Positions 9,622 through 59,247 of a stretch of 64,000 nt of DNA are shown here, piece by piece. The stretch is from Medicago truncatula (taxonomy: Eukaryota > Streptophyta > Magnoliopsida > Fabales > Fabaceae). Each line of letters starts with the position of its first letter. Positions within the stretch are counted from its first letter, which is position 1. The position numbers and the translations under genes were made by a program. The stretch covers positions 53,345,762 through 53,409,761 of the forward strand of contig NC_053042.1 of the NCBI RefSeq assembly GCF_003473485.1, given 5' to 3'. Under the pieces are notes generated by a model. The model worked only from the letters and a program-made list of their open reading frames with translations, was not told the origin of the DNA and made no database searches.

Positions 9622-12360
9622 ATGAGTCTAGTTAATGAATTTATGTTCATTTTGTTTTCACACCTCATGATGATGCTACTTGTGTTGGTGGGTGGAGATG
9701 AGAGTAAGCACCAAGCAGAGTGTCCACCTTCATTTAGTTGTGGATATCTTGGCAATATCAGCTTCCCTTTCACTACAACAGAACGCCAGGACTGTGGCTT
9801 ATTGCCAATACCTAACTGTGATGGTGATCCAATGAAGCCCAAAATGATCAAATATCATAATAAAGGGAAATGGTTTGAGTTTGAGGTTGCAGCTGTATAT
9901 CCTTCTGAGTTGCACAGTGGCAGTACTACTTCTACTTGTGTTTTCAGAGACAATAATCTCTACAAACTGCTGCAAAACAAAAGTTGTGAAGCTTTCAGAT
10001 ATAATTATACTCCTCCTCCCACCTATCACTTTGTTTCTTTTCGTATCGTTCTCTACACAACTCTGTTCATGTGCAACCGTACCCTCCATATCAACCCTCC
10101 AACATATATGCATAACTATACGTGTCCGCACTATGATCTCTACTACCAGCCTCATAGCCATGCTGATAATACGTCTCAGAGTGCTTTTACAGCTTGCACA
10201 AATGTCACACTTCCAACTAAAGATTTTGCTGACGCTAACGACCCTTCTACTTTCATAACGGCTGATATCCTAACTGAAGTAAAAATAACAGAGGAATGTG
10301 CACATTGTCACTACAAACAAAGAGGACAGTGTACACTTGACAACAACGAGAGATTTTATTGTGCCAATGGTATACTAATACAGTCAACCTAGAAGCGCAA
10401 ACACATAAATGCACTGCACTAGTATGATAGTTGTTGCTTTTGTCTGCTTTCCACATTTTAAGTTCATAAATGTTTCCATCTAAAATGATCAAGACCAGTG
10501 GAGATTGATGTGCCTAATTTAAGTACTATCTTGTTGTCTTTTAATATTGGCACTTACTACAATTTTTAGCTGATTTCCTATTACTGTTGGATGGCAAGAG
10601 ATGAGTTCCATTGATTGACTTTTTAATATTTTCTACGCAACACTAAATTAGCAAACCATATTTTTCTCTGCACAACTTTATCTTCATATGTCAAATCTGA
10701 ATTGTTTCTTTTATTTAATTGCAGTTAAAGGGCTGACTCGGAATGCCAAATTGGGTATAGGTAATGTACCGTTTACATAACTTTCAGCACACAACTTCTA
10801 TCCATTGGTTTGGAGTGTGAAAGTTCATCAATATGTTGAACTCATAGGATCTTCTGATTTGTTTTGTCAATTTTTTTTTTTGTTTCATTCTTTAGTCTAA
10901 AAGGATGAAACTTATTTTAAAATATTTGTGTGATTATAATCTGTGCAATGCCAGGTTTCATTTCCTTTCTTATACTATTTTATAGTAATCTTCAATTGAG
11001 ACATTCTTTTGGTCATTTTCCACAGGTTTGGGGATTGGTATTGGAATCCCAGGCATCTTGTTGATTGGGGTGGTGTTTCTCCTTCGACTCTGCAAACGGA
11101 AACATGCTATTTCGGTTGGACACTTCCAATCTAGTAACTCTTATTCTGATTCCTCCATAAATCCACGCAGAGAGACTGGTAGTAAATATTTCGGAGTTCC
11201 ATTATTCTCCTACGATGAGCTTAGAAAAGCAACAAACAATTTTGACCATAATAAAGAACTTGGAGATGGAGGTTTTGGTACCGTCTACTTTGGTAGGCAC
11301 ACAATTAACTGACACTAAATTTACTCTTTCCATCTTATTAAATAACTTATACTTCAACACTTAAAATCCAGGGAAACTTCCAGATGGACGTGAAGTTGCT
11401 GTCAAGCGTTTATATGAACACAACTATAGGAGAGTAGAGCAGTTCATGAATGAAGTCAATATTCTGACAACTTTGCGGCACAAAAATCTTGTGTCCCTCT
11501 ATGGATGCACTTCACGGCACAGTCGTGAACTACTTCTTGTGTATGAATATATCTCAAATGGTACCATTGCATGTCATCTCCATGGTGAATTGGCCAAGCC
11601 CGACTTACTACCATGGTCTATACGAATTAAAATTGCCATAGAGACTGCTAATGCCTTGGCTTATCTCCATGCTTCTGGGATCATTCACCGTGACGTGAAA
11701 ACCAGCAACATACTTCTTGACGGCAATTTTGGTGTTAAAGTTGCAGATTTTGGCCTTTCAAGACTATTCCCCGAGGATGCCACTCATGTCTCCACAGCTC
11801 CACAAGGAACACCAGGTTACCTTGACCCCGAGTATCACCAATTTTATCAGCTTACTAGCAAGAGTGATGTATATAGTTTTGGAGTTGTGCTCATTGAACT
11901 AATATCATCAAAGCCTGCTGTTGATATAAACAGAAGTAGGGAAGAGATTAACTTGTCAACTCTAGCCACAAAGAAGATTCAAGAAAGTGCAATTGATGAG
12001 CTCGTAGATCCTTCTCTTGGTTTTCATTCAGACAGTGAGGTTAATAGGATGATAGTTTCAGTGGCAGAATTGGCTTTTCAGTGTTTGCAAAAGGACAAAG
12101 AGTTAAGACCTTCTATGGAAGAAGTATTAGATGAACTTAGGAGAATAGAAAGTGGGAAAGATGGGGTTGAGGTTGTAGAGGAGGCAGATGTTGATGGTGT
12201 TGGATCATCACACAGTATTATACAGCCACCACCAGTCTCACCTGAATGGGATGAAGTTGGATTATTGAAGAATGTGAAAATTATGAAGCATCCGTCTTCA
12301 CCAAACACCGTCACCGATAAATGGGAAAGTATTAATACTACGCCTAATGCCAGTGCTTAA
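9622..12360 (+). CDS. LRK-2: LRK10L receptor kinase, alpha ectodomain + type-1 kinase (intact)
   Basis: Exons 9622-10369, 10725-10760, 11026-11292 and 11372-12360; all junctions are GT-AG with phases 1, 1 and 1, giving 679 residues. Residues 1-27 are a signal peptide; about 34-245 form a GUB_WAK-type cysteine-rich ectodomain (CPPSFSCGYLG, ISFPFT, and a final CxxC...GQC...FYC) with several NxS/T sites; about 265-284 are a membrane helix. The kinase runs from about 340 (LGDGGFGTVYFG) with VAVK lysine, HRD at 456-458 and DFG near 476, so it is a complete RD kinase. The C-tail ends in DKWES...TTPNASA. Reading past the first donor gives a 256-residue secreted form ending after ILIQST. Family role: plasma-membrane sensing in defence or stress; ligand unknown. 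Confidence 0.92.
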
Positions 12361-13987: not shown

Positions 13988-16291
13988 ATGGCTCCATTAG
14001 ATTTTTTCTGCTTCCTCTTGTATTGTCTCCTTGTGTTGATTTTATCAGCAAGGTATGGAAATGGGAACCAATATAACTGTCCACACTCATTCAGTTGTGG
14101 AGCTCGTGGGATTTTCCATTACCCTTTCACCAAGGCAGAACAACCAGACTGTGGCTCCATACTCATACGTGGCTGTGATGACAGTTATTATTCACCCAAA
14201 ATGATCCAACTGGACAAGAATGCAAAACCAATTGAGCTAACTGGTGTCGTTGACCAGAGTACCATTACACTTTCTGATCAAGATTTTTACAAACGTTTGC
14301 AAGATAATGCTTGTGATACTTTGAACCACAATTACACTCTTCCTCCCCCTTCTCCTTTTGTTTCTTTTTATATAAATTATAATGTAACTCTTTTCCTATG
14401 CAATCGCAGCCATAATATCAATCCACCAGAACAGTATTTTAAACACAACTGTACTTCCTTTTCCTACGATATCTATTATAACAGGAAACCATATCTCAAT
14501 GTTACTAATGAGGCAGATAAATTTTTCTCGTCCTGCTCGGTTCTTCAGTTTCCAACTAAAGATTTGCCTGATACCGAACACATTTTATCATTTGTATCTG
14601 GTCAGATGGTTATTAAAATAGTACTATCTGCTGATTGTAATGCATGCTGCAACCACAGAGGAGGCCAATGCAGGCTTGATGCCAACCAAATGTTTTACTG
14701 TGACAATGGTACGCTTCTAATAAACTTCTCATTCTCATGTACTCCATTTGTTTATTTACAGTTTACTTACAAAGTTGCTTCAAATTGGCTTCTGCTGCAG
14801 AGCGGAAGAGAAAATATTTTAAGCTGCTACTTGGACTTGGACTTGGAATAGGTAATATATATAATTAATAATTTTTTTAATTGATAACGAAACGTAAGAA
14901 TATTTCATATATTTAAAATTTTATCCGGTTGAAAGTTGAATTTCCCTACTACAGGTTTAAGCATTACATTGTTTGTACTGGGTATTCTTATAATACGATG
15001 CCTCTCCAGAAGAAAACGTGCTCCATCAGACCTCCAGAATCAATCGAGAAGCGCATATGCTGATGTGACTGATCCCTACCGAAATCCAGATCAAGAAAAT
15101 GGCACTGTCTACTTTGAAATCCCTCTGTTTTCTTACAAGGAGCTAGAAGAAGCTACAAATAATTTCCACCACGGCCACCAGCTTGGAAGCGGAGGCTTTG
15201 GAATAGTTTACTATGGTAAATCGTTCCTTTCCCAAACTTTACTCTATCGAAATGTTTTAGTTGTACACTTATACAGTATTTCCAATATGTTGAATAACTA
15301 ATGATTACCTGATCTGATCCTTAACAAATAACAACCAGGAAAACTGCACGATGGACGAGAAGTTGCTGTGAAGCGCCTATATGAACATAACTGGAGGCGA
15401 GTAGAACAGTTCACGAATGAAATTGAGATCCTTGCTCGCACACGCCACACGAATCTTGTATCCCTTTATGGCAGTACTTCATATCACAGCAACGAACTAC
15501 TGCTCGTGTACGAATATGTTCCAAATCACACTGTTGATTGCCATCTCCACGGCAATCTAGCAAGATCAGGCACACTGCCATGGCATATCAGGATGAAAAT
15601 TGCCATAGAGACAGCAAGCTCATTGGCTTATCTGCATGCTTCAGGCATCATCCACCGTGACGTAAAAACCAAAAACATTCTCCTCACAGATAACTTCAGT
15701 GTCAAAGTTGGAGATTTTGGTCTTTCAAGGCTATTCCCCCTCGATATCACCCATGCTTCCACGGCACCACAAGGGACACCGGGTTATGTTGATCCAGAAT
15801 ATCACCAATGCTACCAGCTTACTAGCAAGAGTGATGTATACAGTTTTGGTGTTGTGGTCATTGAGCTAATATCATCTAAGCTTCCAGTTGATATGAAGAG
15901 GCATAAGGATGAGATTAACTTGTCAAACCTGGCCTTAAAGAAAATACAAGAGGGTGCATTAATTGAGTTGGTGGATCCTTATCTTGGTTTTGATTCAGAC
16001 AATGAGATAAAGCGGATGATAGTTTCGGTGGCAGAGTTAGCTTTTCAATGTTTGCAAAGGGACAAGGAATTGAGACCTTCCATGGAAGAGGTTTTGAAGA
16101 TGTTGATGAGAATTGAAAGTGGGAAGGATGTGCCTGAGCATATAGTTGAAGAAGATGTGTGTCCACCCTCTCCACCTTCACCAGATGGGGATGGGAATGA
16201 GATTGAGATTGGACTATTCCAAAAAATGATGCCACAGCCATCACCTAAAGCTGTGGTTGATAAATGGGATAGTAAATCCAGTACCTTCTAA
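13988..16291 (+). CDS. LRK-3: LRK10L receptor kinase, alpha ectodomain + type-1 kinase (intact)
   Basis: Exons 13988-14708, 14801-14851, 14955-15215 and 15339-16291 give 661 residues, all introns GT-AG, phase 1. The start gives a clear signal peptide (FFCFLLYCLLVLILSARYG). The ectodomain shows CPHSFSCGARG, YPFT, CDSS-like spacing, NYT/NVT/NRS glycosylation sites and a terminal CNACCNHRGGQCRLD motif. The membrane helix is in exon 3 (SITLFVLGILIIRC). Kinase: LGSGGFGIVYYG, VAVKR, IIHRDVKTKNILL, DFGLSR and GTPGYVDPEY; an RD kinase with all key residues. The tail ends DKWDSKSSTF, shorter than in its sisters. Tandem neighbour of LRK-2 and LRK-4 in the same direction. Confidence 0.92.
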
Positions 16292-17694: not shown

Positions 17695-20541
17695 ATGAAC
17701 CCCCTTTTCATTTTCAAATCATTAATATTCTTCCAGTTACTGCTTGTTTCAGCTCAAGATGGAGGATGTCCAACCTCCTTTAGTTGTGGATATCTTGGCC
17801 AAATTACCTTCCCTTTCACAGTCACACAATACCCTCACTGTGGCATACTGGCCATAAGTGGTTGTGATAAAAAAAATACATCTGCTCCCAAAAGCATCCA
17901 ACTAGGAAAGATGCCATCCAAACAGCCTTTAATAGTTACATACGTGGAAGGTAATACCATCACGGTCTCAGATAAAACACAGCGGAAGTATTTGCTATCC
18001 AAAAAATGCCAAGCCTTTCACAATTATCCTGTTCCTCCCACTACTCCTTTGGGTTCTTTCTACCTCAAATTTAATATAACTATGTTCAAATGCAATCGCT
18101 CCCTTAAGGTCACCCCTCCAAAATCATTTCAAAACTACGCAAACTGTTCCGGTTATGATATCTACTATGACCTTCAAAATATTGTGAGACCTCCTCCTTT
18201 CAAAGTGCCAAACTCTTTAGCACAGTGTACACAGTGTCAGGCTGCGGTAAGAGACATGCCCAATGATGACCCCTTTGAGTTTCTATCTCCTCAGATCTCC
18301 ATTGTAGTACAATTATCTGATGATTGTAACCAGTGTCTTCATCATCAAGGGGGACGATGCCGACTTGATATTCAAGGAAAATTCCACTGTGCCGAAGGTA
18401 TGCTTTCACAATACATGCGCATTGTTAAAAAGAGTTTAAGAGAGGGGAGGTTGTCCTGATTGAAGGGCATTAAATAGACCTCAACCAAAGGTTACACAAC
18501 AAAGGTTGTTAAAAAAAGGTTACCAGAAAATCCAACTTCTAAGACTTTTTCGTTGGACGTATACTAAAATTTTGGCACCCAACAGTGTTCAATCCTAAGT
18601 ATCAGTTACTAGACTGTATTATATACAGTAGAATAGAAATTTGAAATTTCCATCCTTGTATAGTAATTTAAGGAAATGGATCCCCTTCAGCTGCTGCACC
18701 GTGCAGCTGCTGTCGGGGTCAAAATACATAATTTAGTCTCAAGTGCAGCTGCTGTCGGGGTCAAAATACATAATTTAGTCTCAAGTCTTCACTTTATTGC
18801 TTGTTTTCAATTTAATCGGTACCTTTGATTTCTGCTGCAGGGGATAAAAGTTTGGCGTGGAAGTTAGGACTTGGTAATGTTTGTTCCTCTAACATAGAAT
18901 TTTCTTGAATTTCGAATGTCGATATTTAAAGATTATGAGCATCATACACATATCATATGTTCCATCTATTTTATACCCTACTCCCCCTTTTAATGGGAAT
19001 GAATATTTTTATATAGGAATTTTAGATGGCACGATATATTTTTGCCTATATATTTATTTCCCTTTTTATAGACCTATCACAGTTTGAACGGTGGAGGATA
19101 TAATAGTCAAGCAATCACAGTCAATCAGAGAGTATTTCAAATTCCCTTTGCATGCTCTTCAAGTTAATATTCAATAAATTATTGAATTTTTCTCACCTTT
19201 ATTGATTTCTAGGCATTGGACTTCTTGTCATTATTATAACCGGGTTGCTGATTATATGGCGCTGCAAACGACGTGTTCCTGATTTCTACTCAAATAAATA
19301 TACAGAGAGTAACAGTTTCTACCATGGGGTGCCGGTCTTTTCCTTTAAGGATCTTGAAGTAGCAACAAAAATTTTTGACAGTTCAAGAGAACTTGGAGAA
19401 GGAGGATTTGGCACTGTTTATTACGGTATGTGTAGCACTCACAAACTCTACTATCTATGAAAAGGCGGTAGGTTTAATTAGAACTTCCCTGTAGTTATAA
19501 GTAAATAATAACTCTTGCTTTCATCTTTAACAACCAGGAAAACTCAAAGATGGACGTGAAGTTGCTGTGAAGCGCTTATTTCAGCACAACTTTAAACGAG
19601 TTGAACAGTTCATGAATGAAATCAAAATCCTCACTCGATTGCGCCACAGAAATCTAGTTTCTCTCTATGGCTGTACTTCACATCATAGTCATGAACTATT
19701 GCTTGTATATGAATACATTTCAAATGGAACTGTTTCCAGTCATCTGCGTTGTGAATCAACGAATCCTGGCTTTCTTCCATGGCATATTCGAATGAAAGTT
19801 GCCTTAGAGACTGCTACTGCTTTGGCTTATCTCCATGCTTCTGAAATCATTCACCGTGATGTGAAAACAAACAACATTCTCCTTGACAACACCTTTTGCA
19901 TTAAAGTTGCAGACTTTGGACTATCAAAACTGTTCCCAAATGATATCACACACGTCTCCACAGCTCCACAAGGAACCCCGGGATATATGGATCCGGAATA
20001 TCATCAATGCTACAGGCTTACAAGCAAGAGTGATGTTTACAGCTTTGGAGTTGTACTTGTTGAGCTGATATCGTCTATGCCAGCAGTTGATATGAGCAGA
20101 GATAAGGATGAGATAAACTTGGCAAATTTAGCCATACGGAAGATTCAAAAAAGTAAAATCCATGAGCTTGTGGATCCTTCCCTTGGCTTTGAGTCAGATA
20201 AGGATGTTAAAAGGAAAATAGTTTTGATAGCAGAGTTGGCTTTTCAGTGTTTGCAGCGGGATAAGGAATTGAGGCCCTCAATGGATGAGGTTTTGGACGT
20301 GCTGAGGAGAATTGATAGTGTTAGTGGGAGGGATGAGTTTGGAAATGTAGAGGAAGTAATAGCTCGTGGAGCAGTGATGTCGAGTATTAACGTATGTTCA
20401 CTGTCATCGTCCTCACCCGATCACGTTGAGATGAAATTGTTGAAGAATAAAAAGTTAACGTCTCCTACGGGTGTGACGGATAAATGGGATAGTGAATCGA
20501 CTACTTCTAATGTCAGCGGTCAGTCAGCAAGCCGGATTTAA
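17695..20541 (+). CDS. LRK-4: LRK10L receptor kinase, alpha ectodomain + type-1 kinase (intact)
   Basis: Exons 17695-18397, 18841-18873, 19213-19425 and 19538-20541 give 650 residues. I chose the ATG at 17695 over an in-frame one at 17647 because it places a good signal peptide (FIFKSLIFFQLLLVSAQ) at the N-terminus. Ectodomain: CPTSFSCGYLG, FPFTV, HCGILAISGCD and CNQCLHHQGGRCRLD. Exon 3 encodes the helix (GLLVIIITGLLIIW). Kinase: LGEGGFGTVYYG, VAVKR, IIHRDVKTNNILL, DFGLSK and GTPGYMDPEY, a complete RD kinase. The C-tail DKWDSESTTSNVSGQSASRI is near that of the orphan fragment at 28279-28569. The 3' flank is also shared with the flanks of LRK-5 and LRK-6. Confidence 0.92.
18701..18784. repeat. 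Perfect 42-bp tandem duplication in LRK-4 intron 1
   Basis: Two adjacent copies of a 42-base unit beginning GTGCAGCTGCTGTCGGGGTC (18701 and 18743). It lies 57 bases upstream of the exon-2 acceptor. No effect on splicing signals is evident. Confidence 0.9.
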
Positions 20542-23153: not shown

Positions 23154-24101
23154 CTAACGTGTCAATTGGCTCAGAAGGATATCTTTATGCACTACAAATT
23201 AAGAAAGTGTGGAACAAATTGATAAACACAATTGTTGTAAAGAAAATAAAATTGATAAACACAATTGGATATGGCTCTAGTTTATGTAGTAGTACGTCTT
23301 TTGTTCTCTCATTTAATTGTGTTACTGCTACTTGTCTTAACTAGGAAAGGAAATGGACACAGTGATGATTGTCCAGAATCATTTGATTGTGGAATTGATT
23401 AAATACCCTTTTACAACAGTTGAATTCCCAAGCTGTGGTACATTGGCAATTCAAGGTTGTGATAATCTCAACAAAACTGCTATGAAGCACGTCCAGTTAA
23501 CCAAAGGAGGAAAACTCTTTCAAGTTACAAACATTGATAATCGCGGGTCCATTGGCAACACTATTTCCATTATTGACCCCAATATCACCAAGCTTTTGGA
23601 GAAGAATGCTTGTGAGGCATTCAGCCATGTTAATATTACACTCCTTCCTTCCTCTCCTTTTGGAACTTTTTTTTATGAAAAACTACATAACAGCTTTCAA
23701 ATGCAACCGTACCCGAAAATTAGGCATCCAACCTCCAAGTAATTTCTTCAGAAATAGTTCTTGTCATCCCTATGATTTTTACTTTGGCGATTCAATATTT
23801 GATGATGAGTCCAACCACTCTTTCGTGTCCTGTTCGTCATTGCATCTTCCTGTCAATGAATTAGGCTTTGCACTTTCCGGCAATCCATTTCCATTCTTAG
23901 ATGATCAAATAACCTTTCAGTTCAAACCTTCATATATCTTTCACCAATGTCATTACCGTGATAAAAATATTAATTGTCGTGTTGACAGAAAAGGACAAAT
24001 TTATTGCCCCGCAAGGTAATGCGTTAACAAAACTTACAGAAACATTTACGATATTACATGGATCATTAGAATTTTGCTAACTACTTCCTATTTGAATTAT
24101 T

Positions 24102-24717
24102 GAGAAATACTAGGGACACACTCTCTAACACACCCTTTTAACACACACCAATTATAAATTGCCACGTCATCCAATTTCCTTATTGATTTACCTGACAACC
24201 GGCTGCATAAGTTAAGAAACAACGTTATTATTTTTTTCAAAAGTCGTCCAATAATCTTAATTGTGAAAAGAAAAAAAAAAATCGTCACTATCCTTTGTTC
24301 CTTCAACCACCCTTCCACTAATCTCATTCCTGCAAGTATTTCCAATTACGTTTTTCTTCCCGTTGAAATCGAAATCTAAAACAAACTCACTAGAAATTAC
24401 CAAACTCAAATTGTTATAGAAATGGAACCCTTATGCTTTTTCAAACTCAAATTCTCTGTTTTTTTTTTTTTTGCAAAGGTTCCAAAAAAGTGAAGGTACA
24501 GTCATGGTGAAAAGTGGAAACGCATGGAAGAATGAAGATGGACGGTTTTTTTCAAAACTGAAGATGGAGAGTTAAAGTCCAAATAAAAAAAATAAATACT
24601 CTTTCAAAATCAAACCGGTAGCAAGTTACCAAATTAAAAATAGTGGATGACATGTCAAGTTATAATTGGTGTGTGTTAAAAGGGTGTGTTAGAGAATGTA
24701 TCCCTAACATTTCTCTC
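24102..24717. mobile_element. MITE in LRK-5 intron 1, 8-bp target duplication
   Basis: Inverted ends of about 70 bases (GAGAAATACTAGGGACACAC on the left; complement of GAATGTATCCCTAACATTTC on the right) and a duplication GAATTATT at 24094-24101 and 24718-24725. The paralogous intron of LRK-7 at 35734-35749 lacks the element and has the uninterrupted TTTGAATTATTATTATGCAG, an empty-site control. Confidence 0.88.
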
Positions 24718-25114: not shown

Positions 25115-25156
<42 letters not shown>

Positions 25157-26555: not shown

Positions 26556-28278
26556 GTCTTTTAACATTTATTAAAGTAGCAAATATACCATTTTTCATAC
26601 AAATTTACCTCGTTTGGCTCGTTAAACAATTACCTAAGGGTATTTACTAGCATTCTCCATATAAAAATACTTACGCCTTTTGTTTATATACATGGATAGA
26701 GATAAAATTTATGATAGAACATCATGACTTCGTTTGATCCATGTAAAAGATCATACTTGCTGGGATAAAACTTATTGTCGTTGCTTTTTATTTATAAAAC
26801 TTATTGTTGTTGCTTTTCGTTTAATATTATATACTAGTATATATACCAAGCTCATTACTTTCTTACATTTAACATTCCCGTTTTATTTAAATAATTTATA
26901 ATTCTCCAGCGGTTGTGGTGGCTGTTGGAGTTGCAGTGCTGATGTTGTTTGCATGCTGCACCAAGACAAAGATATTCCCTCCAACATTTCATCTGTTCAA
27001 GAAGGAGAGTTCAACCCATCAAATTATTGAGGAGTTTTTGAAAGAACATGGACCTCTTCCAGCTGCTAGGTATAGTTATGCAGATGTCAAGAAAATAACA
27101 AACTCTTTTAGAAACAAATTAGGCCAAGGAGGGTTCGGAAGTGTATACAAAGGGAGGTTACGTGATGAGCGTGTTGTTGCTGTGAAGGTTTTAAGTGAAT
27201 CAAAAGGCGACGGGGATGATTTCATTAATGAAGTTGCGAGTATCAATAGAACTTCGCATGTCAACGTTCTTAGACTTTTGGGGTTCTGTTTGGATGGTTC
27301 TAAAAAGGCACTAATATACGAATTCATGCTTAATGGATCTCTTGAGAAGTTCATATACGAGAAAAATCCATTGAAGGATGATGGCCAATTGGAATGCAAA
27401 ATGTTGTATGATATTGCTGTTGGCGTTGCTCGTGGGTTAGAGTACATGCACAGAGGCTGCAACACTAGAATCTTACATTTTGACATAAAACCTCATAATA
27501 TATTACTTGACGATGATTTGTGTCCAAAAATTTCAGATTTTGGACTTGCTAAAATATGTCCAAGAAAAGAAAGCATTGTATCAATATTTGGTGCAAGGGG
27601 GACACCAGGATATATTGCTCCAGAGCTGTTCTCTAGACATTTTGGTGGGGTGTCACACAAATCAGATGTCTACAGTTATGGAATGATGGTTTTAGAAATG
27701 GTTGGTCGAAGAAAGAACATCAAAGTTGAAGTGGATTGTTCTAGCGAGTTATATTTTCCACATTGGATCTACAAGCGTCTTGAATTGAATCAAGATCTTG
27801 GACTCAAGTGTATTAAAAATGAAATTGATGAAGAGATGGTAAGAAAGATGACAATGGTGAGTTTATGGTGCATACCAACCGACCCTTCACATCGACCAGC
27901 AATGAATAAAGTGGTGGAAATGCTAGAAGGGAGCCTTCAAGTGCTAGAAATACCACCCAAACCCTTTTTGTCCTCTCCTTCAAGATCTTTGATCAATTTA
28001 TCATCTGAAACACTTTAATTTGTGTGGATATTAAGTTGCAATGTAGAGTATGTAGCACTAGAAAAAAATGTCATCATTTCTTTTGTATTATATCTCTGGA
28101 TTATGTTTTATTACCAATGAGCAATTAAGGAATGAGGAAATTCTCTGAGATCATGATCATCATTTTTAGAGAGACAGAAACACATTTTCGAATGTGACGT
28201 TGATGCCCAATTTGGGTCCGACAGCATTAGAAGTTTTAAAAAAACTATTTGAATGAAACAAAAAAAAAAGACACGGGT

Positions 28279-28569
28279 TTGCAACGGGACAAGGAATTGA
28301 GGCCTTCAATGGATGAGGTTTTGGAGGTGTTGAGAAAAATTTATAGTGGCAGTGGGAGGGAAGAGTTTGGACATGAAGATGAAGTAATAGGTCGTGGAGC
28401 AGGGATATCACGTATTAATGTACGTTCACTGTCACTGTCTTCACTCGACCACGTTGAGATGAAATTGTTGAAGAATAAGAAGTTAACACCTCCTACAGCT
28501 ATGACAGATAAATCGTATAGTGAATCGACTGCTTCTAATGTCAGTGGTCAATCGGCGAGCCGAATGTAA
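28279..28569 (+). pseudogene. Orphan C-terminal fragment of a type-1 LRK kinase
   Basis: About 96 codons from LQRDKELRPSMDEVL to SGQSASRM, followed by a stop, closely match the last 97 residues of LRK-4. There is no upstream kinase in this frame; instead the intact type-2 kinase of LRK-5 ends 261 bases before. The DKW motif of the tail is altered to DKS. It is the remnant of a type-1 kinase gene lost or replaced here, and the following flank also matches that of LRK-4. Confidence 0.85.
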
Positions 28570-29564
28570 TATGACACTAGTAAATTGAACCTTTAATATT
28601 TCAGTAGATAATGATAAGATTTCATCAGCACTTGTCATAGGATCCAAAGGTTAGCCAAAAACTTATGTATACTCTATTAGTAATGTGACATATCTTGAAA
28701 ATTGGTTGTTTTTTCTTTATTGATTTATCTTGTTGTGTGGATGCAAGTTCCTGACTGATAATTCTTTGAGTCGAATTGACCAATTCAAAACTGGATACTG
28801 AACTTCGAAATTTACATATTAGCATATTCCTTAACTATGTTTTCTCTAATTGCATAATTAAAGTTGTTAATATTCATATTTAGCCACAGCAGAATTACAA
28901 CTATGTACTACATTATCAAATTTTATTTCAGTTCATTCTCGTATAAATAGTCCTAGTAGTAATTTAGTTACAAGGAATTAGAATTACCTGAGCATAGTTC
29001 AACATTTGTGACTTGCGAAGAATGCATCCATTCTGCCTGTTCGTAATAGCAAAGGAAAGTCGTCCCTAGAGGAGAAGAAGAGGTAAAGGGTAGCTCTATG
29101 TTCAGCAGTGGTGCTGTTGGTGATGATAATAGCTTTAGGGTTTTGGCTTTAACTTAATTTGATCAGAAACTGAAACTACTGGAATTAGTTTTAAAAGATG
29201 AAAAACGATATACATAGTTTTGCACTTTCTTAATAAGAAAAGAAAAACAATGCATTACTGAACAAGTTCAAGCCGTTGAATTGCTAGTACTTGTTGATTA
29301 TTTGGCGGTTCTTTTTCGGTTAAATATATTGTTCAGTCAGCTTAGTGATCTATGTTTCTAGATATACTTCTAATTTTCTCCAAGGCACTTTATTTTTAAT
29401 CCGAAAAGATAAATACTACGGAAACTCACATACACAAGTGTACATTCAAACTTTGATTTTTCAATGTCTTTTGTTAAAAGGGATTTTTTTTTTTTCTTTT
29501 CAAAAGCTAATCAAGATATCTATTTTATTTTCAACACAATAAGTTTTTTAACATGCATATTCCG
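28570..29564. other. 3' flank shared with LRK-4, then spacer
   Basis: 28570-29170 matches the LRK-4 3' flank and the region about 33185-33780. No frame of interest. Confidence 0.55.
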
Positions 29565-30639: not shown

Positions 30640-32917
30640 ATGGCTCTAGTTCATGCACTACATCTTTTGTTCTCTCATTTGACTGTGTTACTGCTACTTG
30701 TCTTAACTAGTAAAGGAAATGGACACAGTGATGATTGTCCAGAATCATTTGATTGTGGAAATCTTGGATTGGTTGGCTACCCTTTTACCACAGTTGAATT
30801 CCCAAACTGTGGTGCATTGGCAATTCAAGGTTGTGACGATCTCAACAAAACTGCTACGAAACACGTCCAGTTTACCAAAGGAGGAAAACACTTTCAAGTT
30901 ACAAACATTAAAAATGAGCGGCCCAACACTATTTCCATTGTTGATCTGAATTTCACCAAGCTTTTGCAGAAAAATGCTTGCGAGGCCTTTAGCTATGATA
31001 TCACTCTCCCTCCTCCCTCTCCTTTTGGAACTTTTTATATGAAAGACAACATAACAGCTTTCAAATGCAGCCATACCCAAAAATTAGCCAGCAACCCACC
31101 AAATAATTTCTTCAAAAATAGTACATGTCCTCGCTATGATTTTTACTTCGGTGATTCAACAATATCTAATGATGAGCCCAACCACTCTTTCACGTCCTGT
31201 TTTCCGTTTCATCTTCCTGTCATTAAATTAGGTTTTGCACTTTCTGGTAACCCATTTCGATTGTTAGCTGATGAAATTACCTTTAATTTCAAATCTTCAT
31301 ATTATTGTCGACAGTGTTATTACCGTGATAAAAAGAGTAATTGTCGTGCTCACATCAACGGACAAATTTATTGCGCCGCGAGGTAATGTACAATTAACAA
31401 AACTTCCATTAATAATTACAACATTACATGTATCATTACAGTTTTGCCAACTACTTCCTATTTTATCGTAATTGTATTTAATCGACTTGACTATATTAAT
31501 TAAAATTCCTTGTTTGTTTGCATGACACTTGATTAGCTTAGCATCACTATACTAATCAGACACAACCGCTTCTATTGAATTGGTTATGCAGGAAGGGTAG
31601 AAGTTCAACTTGTGCTTCCAAACATAACTGATGTATGCACATATACTCTGTGAGAGTTAACTTAAAATCAGGTTATGTAGAAATCGTGGCATGATGGCTG
31701 GGCAACGTGGCACAATTGGAGGTTTCAGTTTTGAGGCAAGTCACTGGATTTTTCGTGGCACGATGGTGCGCTGACAGCGAATAACATAAACGTATTTTTG
31801 GGTGCAGATTTGTTCCAAATTTTAAGCGATACTTTTACTATAAAAATTGTTGGCATACTACATTAGGACAAAGATCATCCCTCCAGCATCTCTTTTGTTC
31901 AGAAAGGAGAGTTCAACCCATCAAATTATTGAGGAGTTTATAAAAGAGCATGGACCTCTTCCAACTGCTAGGTACAATTATTCAGATGTCAAGAAAATAA
32001 CACACTCTTTTAGAAACATATTAGGCCAAGGAGGCTTCGGAAGTGTATACCAAGGGAAGTTACCAGATGAGTGTGTTATTGCAGTGAAGGTTTTAAGTGA
32101 ATCAAAAGGTGACGGTGAAGATTTCATTAATGAAGTTGCGAGTATCAGTAGAACTTCTCATATCAATGTTGTTAGGCTTTTGGGGTTCTGTTTGGATGGT
32201 TCTAAAAAGGCACTAATATACGAATTCATGTCTAATGGATATCTTGAGAAGTTCATATACGAAGAGAAAAATCCATTGAAGGATGATCGGCAATTGGATT
32301 GCAAAACATTGTATAATATTGCAGTTGGGCGTTGCTCGTGGACTAGAGTATTTTCGTAGAGGCTGCAACACTAGAATCTTACATTTTGACATAAAACCTC
32401 ATAATATATTACTTGATGAGAATTTCTGCCCAAAAAATTCTGATTTTGGACTTGCTAAAATATGTCTGAGAAAAGAAAGCATTGTATCCATATTTGGTGC
32501 AAGGGGAACGCCAGGATATTGCTCCAGAGTTGTTCTCCCGAAATTTTGGTGGGGTGTCCCATAAATCAGATGTCTACAGTTATGGAATGATGGTAAATGG
32601 TTGGTCAAAGAAAGAACATCAAAGTTGAAGTGGATTGTTCTAGCGATTTATATTTTCCACATTGGATTTACAAGCGTCTTGAATTGAATCAAGATCTTGG
32701 ACTCAAGTCTATTAAAAATGAAAATGATGAAGAAATGGTAAGAAAAATGACAGTGGTGAGTTTATGGTGCATACAAACCGATCCTTCACACCGACAAGCA
32801 ATGCATAAAGTGGTGGAAATGCTGGAAGGGAGCCTTGAAGTGCTGGAAATACCACCCAAACCCTTTTTGTCTTCTCCTTCTACATCTTCGATCCATTTAT
32901 CATCTGAAACATTGTAA
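30640..32917 (+). pseudogene. LRK-6: beta ectodomain (open) + type-2 kinase (broken)
   Basis: Exon 1 (30640-31382) is intact: signal peptide LHLLFSHLTVLLLLVLTSKG, CPESFDCGNLG, YPFTTVEFPNCG, and a terminal CRQCYYRD...CRAH...YC motif. I prefer the ATG at 30640 because it matches LRK-7; an upstream in-frame one is at 30571. Exon 2 (from 31592) loses homology after about 20 bases and then meets a stop. The kinase region (about 31851-32917) carries three length changes relative to LRK-8a: one extra base near 32330, two missing near 32518 and five missing near 32593. The [11 protein letters not shown] segment survives in a shifted frame. A secreted ectodomain-only product remains possible. Confidence 0.85.
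31680..31800. mobile_element. Possible LTR-retroelement scrap in LRK-6
   Basis: Words such as CGTGGCACGATGG, CAACGTGGCAC and GTGCGCTGACAG resemble the CACGATGG-rich part of the LTRs at 59672 and 63142. It sits where LRK-6 loses exon 2 and the start of the kinase exon. No boundaries can be fixed. Confidence 0.35.
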
Positions 32918-34890: not shown

Positions 34891-37560
34891 ATGGCTTTAG
34901 TTTATGTTTTACATTTTAGGTTCCTTTTGTTCTCTCATTTGACTGTGTTACTGCTACTTGTCTTAACTAGGAAAGGAAATGGACACAGTGGTGATTGTCC
35001 AGACTCATTTGGTTGTGGAAATCTTGGGTTTTTTAAATACCCTTTTACAACAGTTGAATTCCCAAGCTGTGGTGCATTGGCAATTCAAGGTTGTGATAAT
35101 CTCAACAAAACTGCTATGAAGTATGTCCAGTTAACCAAAAGAGGAAAACTCTTCCAAGTTAAAAAGATTGATAATCACTGGTCCATTGGCAACACTATTT
35201 CCATTATTGACCCCAATATCACCAAGCTTTTGGAGAAAAATGCTTGTGAGGCATTCAGCTATGTTAATATTACCCTCCCTCCTCCCACTCCTTTTGGAAC
35301 TTTTTTTATGAAAAACTACATAACAGCTTTCAAATGCAACCATACCCGAAAATTAGGCATTCACCCTCCAAGTAATTTCTTCATAAATAGTTCTTGTCAT
35401 CCCTATGATTTTTACTTTGGCGATTCAATATTTGATGATGAGTCCAACCACTCTTTCGTGTCCTGTTCGTCATTGCATCTTCCTGTCAATGAATTAGGCT
35501 TTGCACTTTCCGGTAACCCATTTCCCTTTTTAACTAATGAAATTACCTTTCAGTTCCAATCTTCATATGACTGTCAACAGTGTCATAACCATTACCATGA
35601 TAAAAAAAATCATTGTCATGTTGACAGCAACGGACAAATTTATTGCGTCGCAAGGTAATGCATTAACAAAACATACAGGAACAGTTTAAGACATTACATC
35701 GATCATTAGAGTTTTGCTTACTATTTCCTATTTGAATTATTATTATGCAGGAAGGGTAGAAGTCCAGCTCGGAAGCTAGGATTGGTTTTAGGTGATGTAC
35801 ATACTTTAATGTTCAATATAACTAGTTTGTGTGCATTTGGGCATATATTTATCCTTCCCTACCGTCTTTAACGGCAGGCTATGATTGAAAGCAGCATGAA
35901 ACTCAAACATGTTTTTTAACTCTTTTTTCTTCATTAGTTTCATTTTTTAGTTTTGAAGTTGAACAAAAACTTAAATATGCAAGTTCTTGTCAATTGTCAT
36001 ACTAAAAGTCATTACAATCTACTGTTAAAGGAGTCGGTGTTGGACCATGGATCATAGTTGGATTATTCCTCGCGCTACGGCACTACAAACGAAAATCTGG
36101 CCCTGCACAGACCCAATCCCAACCAAGCAACAACACTTATGTTGATCCTTATTTGAATCGTGAAGTGGAGTCAACCAAGCTCTTCTTTGGTGTACCTGTC
36201 TTCTCCTATGAAGAACTTCAACAAGCAACAAATAATTTTGACCGCAGGAGAAAGCTAGGAGTTGGAGGTTTTGGCAGTGTTTACCATGGTCAGCACTCAT
36301 TTATTCTATTTCTACAGATACTATGATTGATTTATTTGAACTTATCTAATGCATAAGAACTTGTGAGACTGTTTGAGAGAACTTATGAAAATAGCTTATG
36401 ACATGTCCATAGTTTGTTTTCAGCTATTTTCATAGTTCTCCAGGATAACTTATGAAAACGGCTCATAGCTTATATAAATATAGTCTGACTTTATTTTATC
36501 CTTTATTATAGAAATAACTTATACATAATATATTAATAATAGAATGCACAGTTCAATCTTACTGATTCACTTCACCATTTATATTTAAAAATTAGGGAAG
36601 CTCAAAGATGGAAGGGAGGTTGCTGTGAAACACTTATTTGAGCAAAATTACAGGAGAGTAGAACAGTTTGTGAATGAAATTGAAGTACTCGCTCGCTTGC
36701 GCCATAGGAATCTAGTGTCCCTCTATGGCTGCACTTCACGTCACAGCCGTGAGCTACTACTTGTATATGAATATGTTCCAAATGGAACTGTGGCTAGCCA
36801 TCTCCATGGTGATTTAGCTAGAGCCGGTTTGCTGACATGGCTTATTCGAATGCAAATCGCAATAGAAACCGCTTCTGCATTGGCTTATCTACATGCTTCC
36901 GACATCATTCACCGTGATGTCAAAACCACCAACATTCTACTTGACATTAATTTTTCTGTTAAGTTAGCAGATTTTGGACTATCAAGGTTGTTCCCTAGCG
37001 ATGTCAGCCATGTTTCCACAGCTCCACAAGGAAGTCCGGGTTACCTTGACCCTGAATACTTCCAACTCTACAAGCTATCGGAGAAGAGTGATGTGTATAG
37101 CTTTGGCGTTGTGCTCATCGAGCTAATATCATCTATGACAGTAATTGATTCTGCCAGAGAAAGAGAGGAAGTTAACTTGGCAAATCTAGCAGCTAAGAAG
37201 ATCCGAAATGGTGCAGTCGGGGAATTGGTTGACCCATCACTTGGTTTTGAATCAGACAGTGAAGTTAACAGGATGGTAACTTCAGTGGCAGAATTGGCTT
37301 TTCAATGTGTGCTAGGAGACATGGAATTAAGACCTTCCATGGATGAAGTTCTGCAAGAACTCAAGAAAATTGATGGTGGGAATTTTGAGTTTGATCATCT
37401 AGAGAAAGTACATGACAGTGTTGGCTCCTCGCGGTACGAAGAAGTACATTCACCGATAGTTGGAACTTCTATCTATAGGAAGCAAGAAGTATCAACTTCA
37501 CCAAAGTCATTGACAGAGAAATGGGAAAGTGAATCTATTACGCCCAATGTCAGTGGTTAA
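34891..37560 (+). CDS. LRK-7: LRK10L receptor kinase, beta ectodomain + type-1 kinase (intact)
   Basis: Exons 34891-35654, 35751-35791, 36031-36288 and 36596-37560 give 675 residues; intron 1 is phase 2 (beta trait), introns 2 and 3 are phase 1. Signal peptide LLFSHLTVLLLLVLTRKG; ectodomain CPDSFGCGNLG, YPFTTVEFPSCG, CDNLNKT and a terminal histidine-rich CQQCHNHYHD...CHVD...YC. The helix spans the exon 2/3 junction. Kinase: LGVGGFGSVYHG, VAVKH, IIHRDVKTTNILL, DFGLSR and GSPGYLDPEY; an RD kinase. The tail ends EKWESESITPNVSG. It has the ectodomain of LRK-5 and LRK-6 but the other kinase class. Intron 2 starts like LRK-5 intron 2 for about 70 bases, then differs. Confidence 0.92.
36335..36560. 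repeat. Dispersed repeat in LRK-7 intron 3
   Basis: Words such as ACTTATGAAAATAGCTTATG and AACTTATGAAAACGGCTCAT recur in both directions. It resembles the AGCTTATAAGC-rich foldback families seen at 24827 and 26400. Ends unclear. Confidence 0.45.
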
Positions 37561-53153: not shown

Positions 53154-54240
53154 ATGAGTCTAGTTAATGAATTTATGTTCATTTTGTTTTCACACCTCAT
53201 GATGATGCTACTTGTGTTGGTGGGTGGAGATGAGAGTAAGCACCAAGCAGAGTGTCCACCTTCATTTAGTTGTGGATATCTTGGCAATATCAGCTTCCCT
53301 TTCACTACAACAGAACGCCAGGACTGTGGCTTATTGCCAATACCTAACTGTGATGGTGATCCAATGAAGCCCAAAATGATCAAATATCATAATAAAGGGA
53401 AATGGTTTGAGTTTGAGGTTGCAGCTGTATATCCTTCTGAGTTGCACAGTGGCAGTACTACTTCTACTTGTGTTTTCAGAGACAATAATCTCTACAAACT
53501 GCTGCAAAACAAAAGTTGTGAAGCTTTCAGATATAATTATACTCCTCCTCCCACCTATCACTTTGTTTCTTTTCGTATCGTTCTCTACACAACTCTGTTC
53601 ATGTGCAACCGTACCCTCCATATCAACCCTCCAACATATATGCATAACTATACGTGTCCGCACTATGATCTCTACTACCAGCCTCATAGCCATGCTGATA
53701 ATACGTCTCAGAGTGCTTTTACAGCTTGCACAAATGTCACACTTCCAACTAAAGATTTTGCTGACGCTAACAACCCTTCTACTTTCATAACGGCTGATAT
53801 CCTAACTGAAGTAAAAATAACAGAGGAATGTGCACATTGTCACTACAAACAAAGAGGACAGTGTACACTTGACAACAACGAGAGATTTTATTGTGCCAAT
53901 GGTATACTAATACAGTCAACCTAGAAGCGCAAACACATAAATGCACTGCACTAGTATGATAGTTGTTGCTTTTGTCTGCTTTCCACATTTTAAGTTCATA
54001 AATGTTTCCATCTAAAATGATCAAGACCAGTGGAGATTGATGTGCCTAATTTAAGTACTATCTTGTTGTCTTTTAATATTGGCACTTACTACAATTTTTA
54101 GCTGATTTCCTATTACTGTTGGATGGCAAGAGATGAGTTCCATTGATTGACTTTTTAATATTTTCTACGCAACACTAAATTAGCAAACCATATTTTTCTC
54201 TGCACAACTTTATCTTCATATGTCAAATCTGAATTGTTTC
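53126..54240. repeat. Near-identical duplicate of 9594-10708 (43.5 kb apart)
   Basis: Exon 1 and nearly all of intron 1 are the same in LRK-2 and LRK-8a. The 256-codon reading frames differ by one residue (Asp in LRK-2, Asn here, codon at 53769 region) and the overlapping frames on both strands are the same. Identity falls abruptly about 10 bases before the exon-2 acceptor. Confidence 0.92.
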
Positions 54241-55611
54241 TTCTAATTGCAGTTACAAAAGAGCTGACTTGGAATGCCAAACTGGGTTTAGGTAATGTAC
54301 AATTTATTTAAATTGCAGCACATGACTTTAAATTCGTTGATCTTGAATTTGAAAGTTCATCAATATGACAACGCAAACTTCGTTGTAGAAAGCCAAAATT
54401 AGTCTGGCTAACGTAAAAATGCAAATTTTGTTTATATTTGTAGCAATCATTACTTTCTAACACTAAACATTGTGTTTCAAATAAATTACAATTCTCCAGC
54501 AGCCATGATAGCTATTGGAGTTGCGGTGCTGATGTTGTTGGCTTACTGCATCAAGAGAAAAGTCTTTCCTCCAGCATTTTTTTTGTTCAGGAAGGAGAGT
54601 TCGACGCATCAAATTATTGAGGAGTTCTTGAAAGAACATGGACCTCTTCCAGCTGCAAGGTACAATTATTCAGATGTCAAAAAAATAACTAACTCTTTTA
54701 GAAACAAATTAGGACAAGGAGGGTACGGAAGTGTATACAAAGGGAAGTTAAATGATGAGCGTATTGTTGCAGTGAAAGTTTTAAGTGAACCAAAAGGCGA
54801 CGGCGAAGATTTTATTAATGAAGTTGCGAGTATTAGTAGAACTTCGCATGTCAACGTTGTTAGACTTTTGGGGTTCTGTTTGGATGGTTCTAAAAAGGCA
54901 CTAATATACGAATTCATGCCTAATGGATCTCTTGAGAAGTTCATATACGAAGAGAAAAATCCATTGAAGGATGATCGCCAGTTGGATTGCAAAACATTGT
55001 ATGATATTGCAGTTGGGGTTGCTCGTGGACTAGAGTACTTGCACAGAGGCTGCAACACTAGAATCTTGCATTTTGACATAAAACCTCATAATATATTACT
55101 AGATGATAATTTTTGTCCAAAAATTTCAGATTTTGGACTTGCTAAAATATGTCTAAGAAAAGAAAGCATTGTATCAATATTTGGTGCAAGGGGAACACCA
55201 GGATATATTGCTCCAGAGTTGTTCTCTAGAAATTTTGGTGGGGTGTCACATAAGTCAGATGTCTACAGTTACGGAATGATGGTTTTAGAGATGGTTGGTC
55301 GAAGAAAGAACATTAAGGTTGAAGTTGATTGTTCTAGCGAGTTATATTTTCCACACTGGATTTACAAGCGTCTTGAATTGAATCAGGATCTTGGACTCAA
55401 GAGTATTAAAAATGAAAATGATGAAGAAATGGTCAGAAAAATGTCAGTGGTGAGTTTATGGTGCATACAAACCGACCCTTCTCATCGACCAGCAATGCAT
55501 AAAGTGGTGGAAATGCTGGAAGGGAGTCTTCAAATGCTGGAAATACCACCCAAACCCTTTTTGTCTTCTCCTTCAACATCTCCAATCCATTTATCATCTG
55601 AAATATTGTGA
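53154..55611 (+). CDS. LRK-8a: LRK10L receptor kinase, alpha ectodomain + type-2 kinase (intact chimera)
   Basis: Exons 53154-53901, 54253-54291 and 54500-55611 give 632 residues. The ectodomain (residues 1-249) is that of LRK-2 with one substitution. Residues about 263-280 are the membrane helix (AAMIAIGVAVLMLLAYCI). The kinase starts near 333 (LGQGGYGSVYKG), lysine near 355, HFD at 453-455 in the catalytic loop (so non-RD), DFG near 473, GTPGYIAPE, and a short tail ending IHLSSEIL. It lies in a single exon, unlike type-1 kinases. Non-RD kinases of this subfamily are often linked to immune signalling (family knowledge). The pairing of an LRK-2 ectodomain with this kinase makes it a chimera. 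Confidence 0.92.
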
Positions 55612-56866: not shown

Positions 56867-59247
56867 ATGCCATTGCTTAATGTTCTAGCTTTTCATTTTC
56901 ACATCATTAGTATTCTCAGCCATCTCCAATACCCTCCGTCTAGAACCAGGATGAACAAAAATTTGTAGATTGTGAAGCCAAAACATGTGGCAACCAAAGT
57001 ATAAGCTACCCTTTCTATATAATAGGATTACAACATTCCTATTGTGGCTACCCTGGTTTTGGTATCACTTGTAACAATACTATTGGTTTTCCAATCCTTA
57101 ATCTTTCTAATACTGAATACATAATCGAGGAGATTTTCTATCAAAACCATTCATTTAGAGTTTCCAATGTTGTTTTTTCAAGATCAAACACCAACAAAGG
57201 TTGTCTTTCACCAACCCAAAACCTCACTTTTCCCCATAACATGTTCTATCTTGCACCTAACCAAAGTGAAGTGAAATTGTTCTTCGGATGCGATTCAACA
57301 AAGCTACCCAGAGAGCTGCAAAGGAACACAATTGGTTGCTCTGAAGAAAACAAAACGAGTTCGGTTGTGGCATTGTATGGCGATGATAAAAATGCAAGCT
57401 TGGTGTCAAAGAATTGCAGGGATGAAGTGGTTTATGCGATGGTGGAAAATGTTGTGAAAGGAGGGATTGAAGAGTCACTGAGAAATGGGGTTCGGTTGAA
57501 TTGGATAGCTAGTGATTGCAATGAGTGTAACAGCACTGGAGGAAGGTGTGGCTTTGATAAAGATGTATACAGTTTCAGGTGTTACTGCACTGATAGAGTT
57601 CATTCTGCAAAATGTGATACAGGTTTGTCTCTCTCTCTTGAAAAAATGCACGGTTTATTATATAATAAAAAATAATTTTTGAAATGTTATAGAAAGTGAT
57701 ACTACTATATTATTAAGCATTTATCTTTTTATTTGCATTTTGTCACCTGCAGTTGCAGTCAGAAGGAAGTTCCAGAGGGTGCGTATAGTGATAATAGGTA
57801 AAAGTTTTAGATTTCTGGAAATATTAAAATGTTGAGTTCTACCAAGGAAGCTTTGCATCATTTCATGGAAATAAATACTATCTTTTAATGATTAATTAAT
57901 GAATGAAATTCCTAATCCCATTTTATAGATAAAATTTGATTATTCACTTTTATCTATTTAAACTATTAAACATTAAGTCTAGTTAATCAAAGAGATAACC
58001 TTTAGTGGGATAAGGCTTGGTTTTTGTTGTAATCAAAGAGATAACCTATAAATATGATTTGAATTCAATAAATTTTTCATTATTTGTTGCTTACCCTAAA
58101 CATTTTCATGTTCTATCAAACAAAAATGTCCAGTGGGCTCAGAAGCTGGAGTTGCATTTGGCTTGCTGATGATCTTAGTTTGTTGGTTTAGGACAAAGAT
58201 CTTCCCTCCCACATTTCTTTTGTTCGGGAAGGAGAATCCCACCCATCAAATTATTGAGAATTTTTTAAAGGAACATGGACCTCTTCTAGCTGCTAGGTAC
58301 AATTATTCAGATGTCAAGAAAATAACGAACTCTTTCAAAAGTAAATTGGGCCAGGGAGGATATGGAAGTGTATACAAAGGTAAGTTACATGATGAGAATA
58401 CCGTTGCGGTGAAGGTTTTAAATGAATCCAAAGGTGACAGTGAAGATTTCATCAACGAAGTTGCGAGTATCAGTAGAACTTCGCATGTCAACGTTGTTAG
58501 ACTTTTGGGGTTCTGTTTGGATGGTTCTAAAAAGGCACTAATATATGAATTCATGCCTAATGGATCCCTTGAAAAGTTAATATATGAAGAAAAGAATCCA
58601 TTAACAGACGATCACCAATTGGATTGCAAAACATTGTATGATATTGCAGTTGGTGTTGCTCGTGGGTTAGAGTACTTGCACAGAGGCTGTAACACTAGAA
58701 TCTTACATTTTGACATTAAACCTCATAATATATTACTTGATGAAGATTTCTGTCCTAAAATTTCAGATTTCGGACTTGCTAAAGTATGTCCAAGAAAAGA
58801 AAGCATTGTATCCATATTTGTTGCGGGGGAACACCAGGATATATTGCTCCAGAGTTGTTCTCCAGAAATTTTGACGGGGTGTCACATAAATCAGATGTTT
58901 ATAGTTATGGAATGATGGTTTTAGAAATGGTTGGCCGAAGAAAGAACATTAAGGTTGAAGTTGATTGTTCCAGCGAGTTATATTTTCCACACTGGATTTA
59001 CAAGCGTCTTGAATTGAATCAGGATCTTGAACTGAGGTGTATTAAAAATGAAATTGATGAAGAAATGGTAAGAAAAATGACAGTGGTGAGTTTATGGTGC
59101 ATACGAACTGACCCTTCGCATCGACCAGGAATGCATAAAGTGGTGGAAATGTTGGAAGGGAGCCTTCAAGTGCTGGAAATACCACCCAAACCCTTTTTGT
59201 CGTCTCCTTCAACATCTTCAGCTCATTTATCATCTGAAATAGAGTGA
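56867..59247 (+). pseudogene. LRK-8b: gamma ectodomain + type-2 kinase (frameshifted)
   Basis: Coding homology is 56944-57622, 57753-57797 and 58134-59247. The ectodomain is the canonical LRK10L type: CGNQSISYPF, CGYPGFGITC, a GUB_WAK region rich in N-glycosylation sites, then a WAK-associated end CNECNSTGGRCGF...CYC. A signal-peptide-like start at 56867 (NVLAFHFHIISIL) is in another frame and stops at 56968, so a one-base shift or a lost start separates it; translation could begin at 57241 without a signal. The kinase has [27 protein letters not shown] and DFGLAK, but one base is missing near 58826 in the activation segment. The rest (GTPGYIAPE to SSEIE) is in the next frame, so a full kinase is not made. 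Confidence 0.85.

Follow-up and report, generated by a model that had tools for sequence, protein, structure and literature searches.

A 64,000-nucleotide stretch of the Medicago truncatula genome (C1:53,345,762-53,409,761; hereafter ‘the window’), taken from an assembly of 430 Mb in 42 contigs, carries a cluster of LRK10-like (LRK10L) receptor kinase genes in which ectodomains have repeatedly been re-paired, at the DNA level, with two types of kinase, one that retains the RD (arginine-aspartate) motif (type 1) and one that has lost it (type 2). Window genes were mapped by stop-to-stop reading, self-comparison and tblastn; they lie on the forward (+) strand, as do the window tracts and remnants placed below, and all comparisons are within this single species and genome. 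Loci outside the window are labelled where needed as L025 (upstream of the window), L026 (downstream), L029 (C1:52.90 Mb), L030 (on C7) and L031 (on C2).

Open gene models with GT-AG introns were obtained for LRK-2 (9622..12360, 679 amino acids; exons 9622-10369, 10725-10760, 11026-11292 and 11372-12360), LRK-3 (13988..16291, 661 amino acids), LRK-4 (17695..20541; 649 amino acids as modelled from 17698, or 650 from the ATG at 17695) and LRK-7 (34891..37560, 675 amino acids; exons 34891-35654, 35751-35791, 36031-36288 and 36596-37560), each of which joins an ectodomain of the alpha/beta class to a type-1 kinase (the LRK-7 ectodomain being of the beta form), and for LRK-8a (53154..55611, 632 amino acids; exons 53154-53901, 54253-54291 and 54500-55611, with phase-1 introns), which joins an alpha/beta ectodomain to a type-2 kinase. 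LRK-5 consists of a frame-broken beta ectodomain (23271..24016) and an open type-2 transmembrane (TM)-kinase exon (26909..28018), while LRK-6 has an open beta ectodomain (30640..31383) and a broken type-2 kinase that has frame breaks and is missing the TM start (31847..32914). LRK-8b (56944..59247) places a gamma ectodomain (PF13947 and PF14380) before a type-2 kinase that is frameshifted near 58813-58828, and has no signal peptide in its frame. The pairings of sensor and kinase listed by an initial annotation of this DNA are thus all physically present, but those in LRK-5, LRK-6 and LRK-8b are broken, and among pairings other than alpha with type 1 only LRK-7 and LRK-8a are open from ATG to stop.

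The two kinase types are told apart by their catalytic loops, which read HRD in LRK-2, -3, -4 and -7 and HFD in LRK-5, -6, -8a and -8b and in LRK-9, LRK-10, C7A and C7B outside the window, and by their architecture, since type-1 genes encode the TM segment and N-lobe on one exon and the remainder of the kinase on the next, and type-2 genes use a single TM-kinase exon. Gene models and kinase motifs bear out the initial annotation on both of these characters; the DKW tail that it also used to tell the types apart occurs in LRK-2, -3 and -4, and reads EKW in LRK-7. Both types match PF00069/PF07714 and contain an RLK (receptor-like kinase)/Pelle kinase domain, and their sequence relatives in the PDB include the plant RLK/Pelle kinases SYMRK, BAK1 and BRI1. 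The motifs are retained in the kinases of LRK-8a, LRK-9 and C7A, with VAVK as IAVK in C7A. We take type 1 to be LRK10L-1 and type 2 to be LRK10L-2. Retention of RD in type 1 and its loss in type 2 fit the LRK10L-1/LRK10L-2 criterion as it applies to a published cucumber pair (PMC7649820).

Ectodomain identity (codon-aligned) is 34.6-38.1% among LRK-2, -3 and -4 and 34.5-37.3% between these and LRK-6 or LRK-7; because identities within alpha and from alpha to beta are equally low, alpha and beta are one divergent ectodomain class. The division into three classes was dropped on account of this overlap, leaving two. No alpha/beta ectodomain scores above a curated Pfam cut-off (the best match, to GUB_WAK_bind, reaches 17.5 bits against a cut-off of 29.4), and sequence comparison of the ectodomains with the PDB gave matches at chance level (E 0.5 and 0.7). 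The gamma ectodomain of LRK-8b matches GUB_WAK_bind and WAK_assoc, a combination also present on all three type-1 genes retrieved from beyond the alpha/beta loci, on a type-2 gene of C6 and on C7B; the ectodomain of a type-2 gene at C1:55.88 Mb matches WAK_assoc only. The gamma form, which had been regarded as special to type 2, therefore occurs on both kinase types, and it is alpha/beta that is the special form.

Whole-genome ectodomain searches returned 15 matches to a beta query and 14 to an LRK-3 query, and all 20 and 21 first-look candidates were scored. These matches represent 12 alpha/beta loci, plus one weak match at C1:53.554 Mb (E 2.2e-4): seven loci in the window, LRK-9 (C1:53,413 kb, 3.5 kb past the window) and LRK-10 in L026, C7A at C7:22.675 Mb (L030), a broken LRK-8a-like copy in L029, and, on C2, a fragment (L031). 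A type-1 kinase is present at four of the loci and a type-2 kinase at seven; in the 10 kb surrounding the remaining one, the C2 fragment, none was detected. Each of the four ectodomain lineages, represented by LRK-2, -3, -4 and -7, is found on a type-1 kinase and again on a type-2 kinase, so that every alpha/beta type-1 gene has a type-2 ‘twin’ in the genome: LRK-2 with LRK-8a, LRK-3 with C7A, LRK-4 with LRK-9, and LRK-7 with LRK-5 and LRK-6. Amino acid identity between twin ectodomains is 99.6% for LRK-2/LRK-8a, 94.4% for LRK-4/LRK-9, 89% for a fifth pair on C6 described below, 82% for LRK-3/C7A and 73% for LRK-7/LRK-6; the kinases of twins are only 31-33% identical. The free shuffling that had been proposed is not supported; the pattern is a twinning of one sensor on two kinases, and in three of five groups the similarity ends near the intron that precedes the TM exon.

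The ectodomain and kinase trees conflict decisively. The ectodomain tree contains 11 rows (the C2:47.79 Mb fragment and the weak C1:53.554 Mb match were excluded, and LRK-5 and L029 entered as pieces) and groups LRK-2 with LRK-8a and L029, LRK-3 with C7A, LRK-4 with LRK-9, and LRK-7 with LRK-5 and LRK-6, each with 100% bootstrap support; LRK-10 forms a long branch of its own, and type-1 rows are never sisters of one another. Starred branches force four changes of kinase type on this tree, a number that is not unusual by itself, since shuffled labels need ~3.4, and forcing the four type-1 ectodomains together is rejected at a cost of 943 log units (approximately unbiased test, p-AU 0.00018). 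The kinase tree (19 rows, with the remaining kinases from the genome searches excluded) separates type 1 from type 2 by very long branches with 100/100 support, unites the four alpha/beta type-1 kinases in one clade (100/99), and rejects a single clade of all alpha/beta kinases (p-AU 0.00019). Incongruence of the two trees had been named beforehand as a test of repeated re-pairing with RD and non-RD kinases, and together with the type-2 partner of every alpha/beta type-1 gene it upholds that claim; LRK-7, which had been listed as a swap product, has its kinase inside the alpha/beta type-1 clade, and that listing was dropped. The kinase tree groups the window kinases with gamma-bearing genes of the same genome, and it places the kinases of gamma-bearing LRK-8b and C7B within the alpha/beta type-2 kinases by unstarred branches with 70-93% bootstrap support.

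Synonymous divergence (Ks) of the ectodomains is 1.16-2.65 between lineages, and within twins it is 0 for LRK-2/LRK-8a (one non-synonymous change in 249 codons), 0.035 for LRK-4/LRK-9, 0.20 for LRK-3/C7A and 0.21 for LRK-7/LRK-6. The type-1 kinases differ among themselves by a Ks of 1.08-1.30, and for this reason the type-1 genes look like coherent old units. The type-2 kinases of LRK-5, LRK-8a and C7A have a Ks of only 0.27-0.37 despite carrying ectodomains from different lineages, so the conflict is evident within type-2 genes alone; the kinases of LRK-9 and LRK-10 are older (Ks 1.1-1.9).

In two twin sets the similarity is concentrated in sharply bounded, gene-conversion-like tracts. A 1,101-bp segment of LRK-2 (9609..10709) that spans the ATG, the ectodomain exon and intron 1 has one mismatch to LRK-8a (53141-54240), a near-identity that the initial annotation had not recorded; in the next homologous stretch (LRK-2 10710-10835) 30 of ~131 columns differ, for an identity of ~77%. 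Only one of the 37 differing columns lies inside the tract (hypergeometric 1.9e-34 on 1,248 columns, for a tract chosen after it was seen). In LRK-4/LRK-9 there are eight mismatches in 643 bp (17761 to 18403), six of which alter an amino acid; the signal-peptide stretch before this tract is more diverged, and similarity stops at the splice donor. Over LRK-4 17698-18397 and LRK-9 (L026 3531-4233), the non-synonymous rate (Ka) of 0.030 is close to the Ks of 0.035, and a positive charge is lost in four of the tract's six replacements. Both pairs have the appearance of renewed homogenisation restricted to the ectodomain, of the sort that gene conversion would leave. Identity between LRK-7 and LRK-5 is also uneven, at 93-100% in the mid-region and ~78% near the exon end.

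Several genes retain traces of a probable exchange of modules. Behind the type-2 kinase of LRK-5 lies the 3' end of a type-1 kinase (28277..28582; 306 bp, 85.6% identical to LRK-4 20249-20554), in which the DKW tail reads DKS. This is followed by a 3' flank common to LRK-5 (28740..29398) and LRK-6 (33190-33944) that is LRK-4-like at 28818-28949, 28984-29026 and 29107-29322 in LRK-5, and at 33268..33631 in LRK-6 (64.7% over 380 columns). These remnants, which are also additions to the initial annotation, indicate that at LRK-5 and LRK-6 a type-2 kinase occupies a type-1 gene. No match to a type-1 3' end was found in the 571-1,289 bp searched behind each of LRK-8a, -8b, -9, -10, C7A and C7B, nor was an upstream region common to LRK-8a and LRK-8b found. 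C7A is a mosaic in which LRK-8a-like upstream sequence leads to an LRK-2-type ectodomain-start remnant (88%), an LRK-3-type 5' flank and ectodomain (79.6%), an LRK-2-type ectodomain-end remnant (78%), an LRK-2-type intron 1 and mini-exon, and finally an LRK-8a-like kinase. LRK-9 has upstream sequence and an ectodomain-start remnant as in C7A, but an LRK-4-type ectodomain. The two remnants end at the same place (L026 2769-2854 in LRK-9 and L030 6548-6464 in C7A) before unlike ectodomains, which suggests that both genes derive from one ancestor and that its ectodomain was exchanged at least one further time.

LRK-8a has its own mini-exon and intron 2 (54241..54435), ~77% identical to LRK-2 up to 54367, and its joint to the type-2 kinase block falls in intron 2 between 54367 and 54435; LRK-7 and LRK-5 likewise stay similar beyond the mini-exon and on into intron 2. 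For LRK-2/LRK-8a, LRK-7 with LRK-5 and -6, and the C6 pair, similarity gives out within, or shortly upstream of, the intron that precedes the TM exon; in LRK-4/LRK-9 it ends with exon 1, and in LRK-3/C7A inside the ectodomain region. Intron 2, which precedes the TM exon, is in phase 1 in LRK-2, -3, -4, -7 and LRK-8a, and intron 1 is in phase 1 in LRK-2, -3, -4 and LRK-8a but in phase 2 in LRK-7, so it is intron 2 that offers a frame-safe joint for all of them. Open gene models also exist for LRK-9 and C7A, from a model search that required phase 1.

The fifth twin pair carries gamma ectodomains and lies in another cluster on C6; the ectodomain at 38.413 Mb precedes a type-1 kinase, the one at 38.352 Mb a type-2 kinase. 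The pair is 87.6% identical over 1,462 columns, with similarity that ends 61 bp before an open frame containing the type-1 TM segment, and across the whole genome the twin is the single close match to the ectodomain, the next best reaching 37-38%. Close type-2 ectodomain twins were thus found for five of the seven type-1 genes examined; type-1 genes outside these seven comprise three at 65-67% (C5:24.82, C6:16.56 and C6:16.54 Mb) and three at 56-57% on C6.

Other features of the region were recorded in the course of this work. The window opens with the 3' end of a gamma ectodomain exon (1..165; 97.6% identical to 57470-57634) that extends upstream into L025; as a whole (L025 9484-9999 plus window 1-165) this exon is 96% identical to LRK-8b in amino acid sequence and has a signal-peptide-like start. 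No kinase was found between it and LRK-2, and it is perhaps a receptor-like protein or a relic. Direct copies of ~1.4 kb with 94-98% identity lie between LRK-8b and LRK-9 (window 59672-60552 and 63142-64000, continuing as 60553-61053 and L026 1-500), and a 221-amino-acid open frame without a Pfam match occupies 61173-61838. Self-comparison also detected long self-complementary stretches of 59-61% identity at 24095-24722, 25128-26099, 5136-6246 and 7753-8836, two of the four being placed between the LRK-5 ectodomain and the LRK-5 kinase exon. In L029, the stretch between ectodomain and mini-exon is bounded by direct repeats of 95% identity (5037-5327 and 8526-8809) that resemble long terminal repeat ends, and a ~183-bp tandem array is present at about 164-2327.

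Taken together, the genes described above make it likely that recurrent RD/non-RD LRK10-like twins were made by ectopic recombination, with two of the five sets carrying gene-conversion-like tracts. The sensor exons and the TM-kinase exon would act as separable modules. Four old type-1 genes would each have had their own ectodomain, copies of which would have moved onto type-2 kinases by ectopic recombination, to give two kinds of product: a type-2 kinase placed in a type-1 gene (LRK-5 and LRK-6), or a new ectodomain placed in a type-2 gene (C7A and LRK-9). Conversion confined to the ectodomain would afterwards have acted on LRK-2/LRK-8a and LRK-4/LRK-9. The resulting twins could respond to a common ligand through two outputs, or RD and non-RD twins may associate through their like ectodomains. 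The conflict between the trees, the remnants, the limits of the tracts and the open frames are direct observations; we infer the direction of copying (type 1 as the ectodomain donor), the conversion process, and the expression and function of the chimaeras from the genes themselves.

Several observations weigh against this account. The splicing of exon 1 to a type-2 kinase is a prediction of the gene models; the C6 type-2 twin has ~2.8 kb between its ectodomain and kinase frames; three of the five twin groups are 80-88% similar without a sharp tract; and the 1.1-kb LRK-2/LRK-8a tract may instead stem from a very recent duplication or from a fault in the local assembly. The type-1 gene at C7:38.39 Mb has no close twin (best match 34%), nor has that at C8:37.70 Mb, whose best match, at 42%, stands ahead of a type-2 kinase and may be a twin of greater age. 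The alpha/beta loci yielded no type-1 twin for LRK-10, and four type-2 copies (LRK-5, -6, -8b and L029) are broken, such that some chimaeras may be dead by-products.

Several alternatives were weighed. An unlikely one is that a single ancient swap gave a pair which was duplicated as a block, followed by ectodomain conversion between partners and conversion among type-2 kinases. The tracts in LRK-2/LRK-8a and LRK-4/LRK-9 and the 5' flank common to LRK-8a, L029, LRK-9 and C7A, which gives several type-2 genes a shared origin, are in keeping with such a history; however, C7A has LRK-3's own 5' flank, with remnants of another ectodomain on both sides, as expected of an insertion or replacement, the type-1 3' end of LRK-5 and LRK-6 was not met again behind the six other type-2 genes searched (0.6-1.3 kb each), and the fifth pair is in a different cluster. 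Assembly artefact, in which near-identical tracts reflect mis-joined paralogues or uncollapsed haplotypes, was named by the initial annotation as a possible refutation and could be suspected from the identity of LRK-2 and LRK-8a at 1,100 of 1,101 bp, yet the sequence after this tract is diverged and still homologous, and twins of 0 to ~20% divergence occur on C1, C7 and C6 of an assembly of 42 contigs. With unequally diverged twins spread over three chromosomes, an error is very improbable as a general explanation, and may apply to that one tract.

The ordinary birth and death of a tandem cluster, in which chance recombinants mostly decay and twins have no selected use, is a possibility that we take seriously without favoring it. 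The broken copies would be expected under this alternative, as would the ectodomain Ka/Ks ratios of 0.64 for LRK-7/LRK-6 and ~0.9 for LRK-4/LRK-9, whereas the open models and retained kinase motifs of LRK-8a, LRK-9 and C7A, a Ka/Ks of ~0.2 for the type-2 kinases of LRK-5 and LRK-8a, the presence of a twin for all four alpha/beta type-1 genes and a pair of the same kind reported in cucumber (PMC7649820) speak against it. A more ambitious proposal, which we regard as rather doubtful, is that these genes form a true plant paired-receptor system with one sensor, two outputs, recurrent module exchange and ectodomain conversion that keeps the match, perhaps giving a non-RD immune kinase a built-in RD partner via like-with-like ectodomain contact.

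Aspects of these twins have parallels in known systems. In Brassica, the SRK and SLG ectodomains are homogenised by gene conversion between linked paralogues, SLG being without a kinase; in the M. truncatula twins, each partner has a kinase, and the two kinases are from different subfamilies. It is also familiar biology that a receptor lacking an RD kinase can work with an RD co-receptor, as FLS2 does with BAK1. The FLS2-BAK1 pair is presented in part of a review that calls FLS2 a pseudokinase (PMC7313013). The mammalian paired receptors Siglec-11 and Siglec-16 similarly have very similar extracellular parts, kept alike by repeated gene conversion, and different signalling parts; they belong to different protein families from the twins, and tests of glycan binding and co-expression are reported for them (PMC5701461), while a shared ligand and co-expression of the twins would be predictions. 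PR5K and SNC4, described in excerpts of two papers as kinase relatives of cucumber CsLRK10L2 with thaumatin-like or glycerophosphodiester phosphodiesterase ectodomains, likewise place a type-2 kind of kinase under unrelated ectodomains, but these came from outside the WAK-like receptors, whereas here sister receptors are the source of the ectodomains, and each ectodomain is retained with both kinases (PMC7649820; PMC4261838).

The closest precedent is the cucumber pair CsLRK10L1/CsLRK10L2, two genes of one locus that, in the sections of the paper concerned with them, are reported to be >90% identical in their N-terminal parts and <30% identical in their C-terminal parts, with RD retained in one and lost in the other, leading its authors to infer that a first-exon ectodomain was duplicated and then fused to another kinase (PMC7649820). 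RD/non-RD twins of this kind were therefore already known. Those sections concern a single pair with a WAK-type ectodomain and describe no scars or conversion tracts (PMC7649820), while the M. truncatula genome contains five twin groups, some with scars, with traces of joints and donors, and in four of these groups the ectodomain is of the divergent class. A literature search found no paper that joined paired receptors, gene conversion and receptor-like kinases.

Similar ectodomains in RLKs usually go with similar kinases, and LRK10L has been listed among three exceptions to this (Shiu and Bleecker 2003, cited in PMC7649820). The four alpha/beta twins and the fifth set turn this exception into a testable case of the same sensor with an RD and a non-RD output, and the twins themselves amount to naturally occurring domain swaps whose joints are known. 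The pair from cucumber sits in a downy-mildew resistance locus, and, according to a figure legend (figure 7), the allele of its non-RD member CsLRK10L2 from a line derived from the resistant parent triggered necrosis in Nicotiana benthamiana (PMC7649820), suggesting that such twins could matter for immunity.

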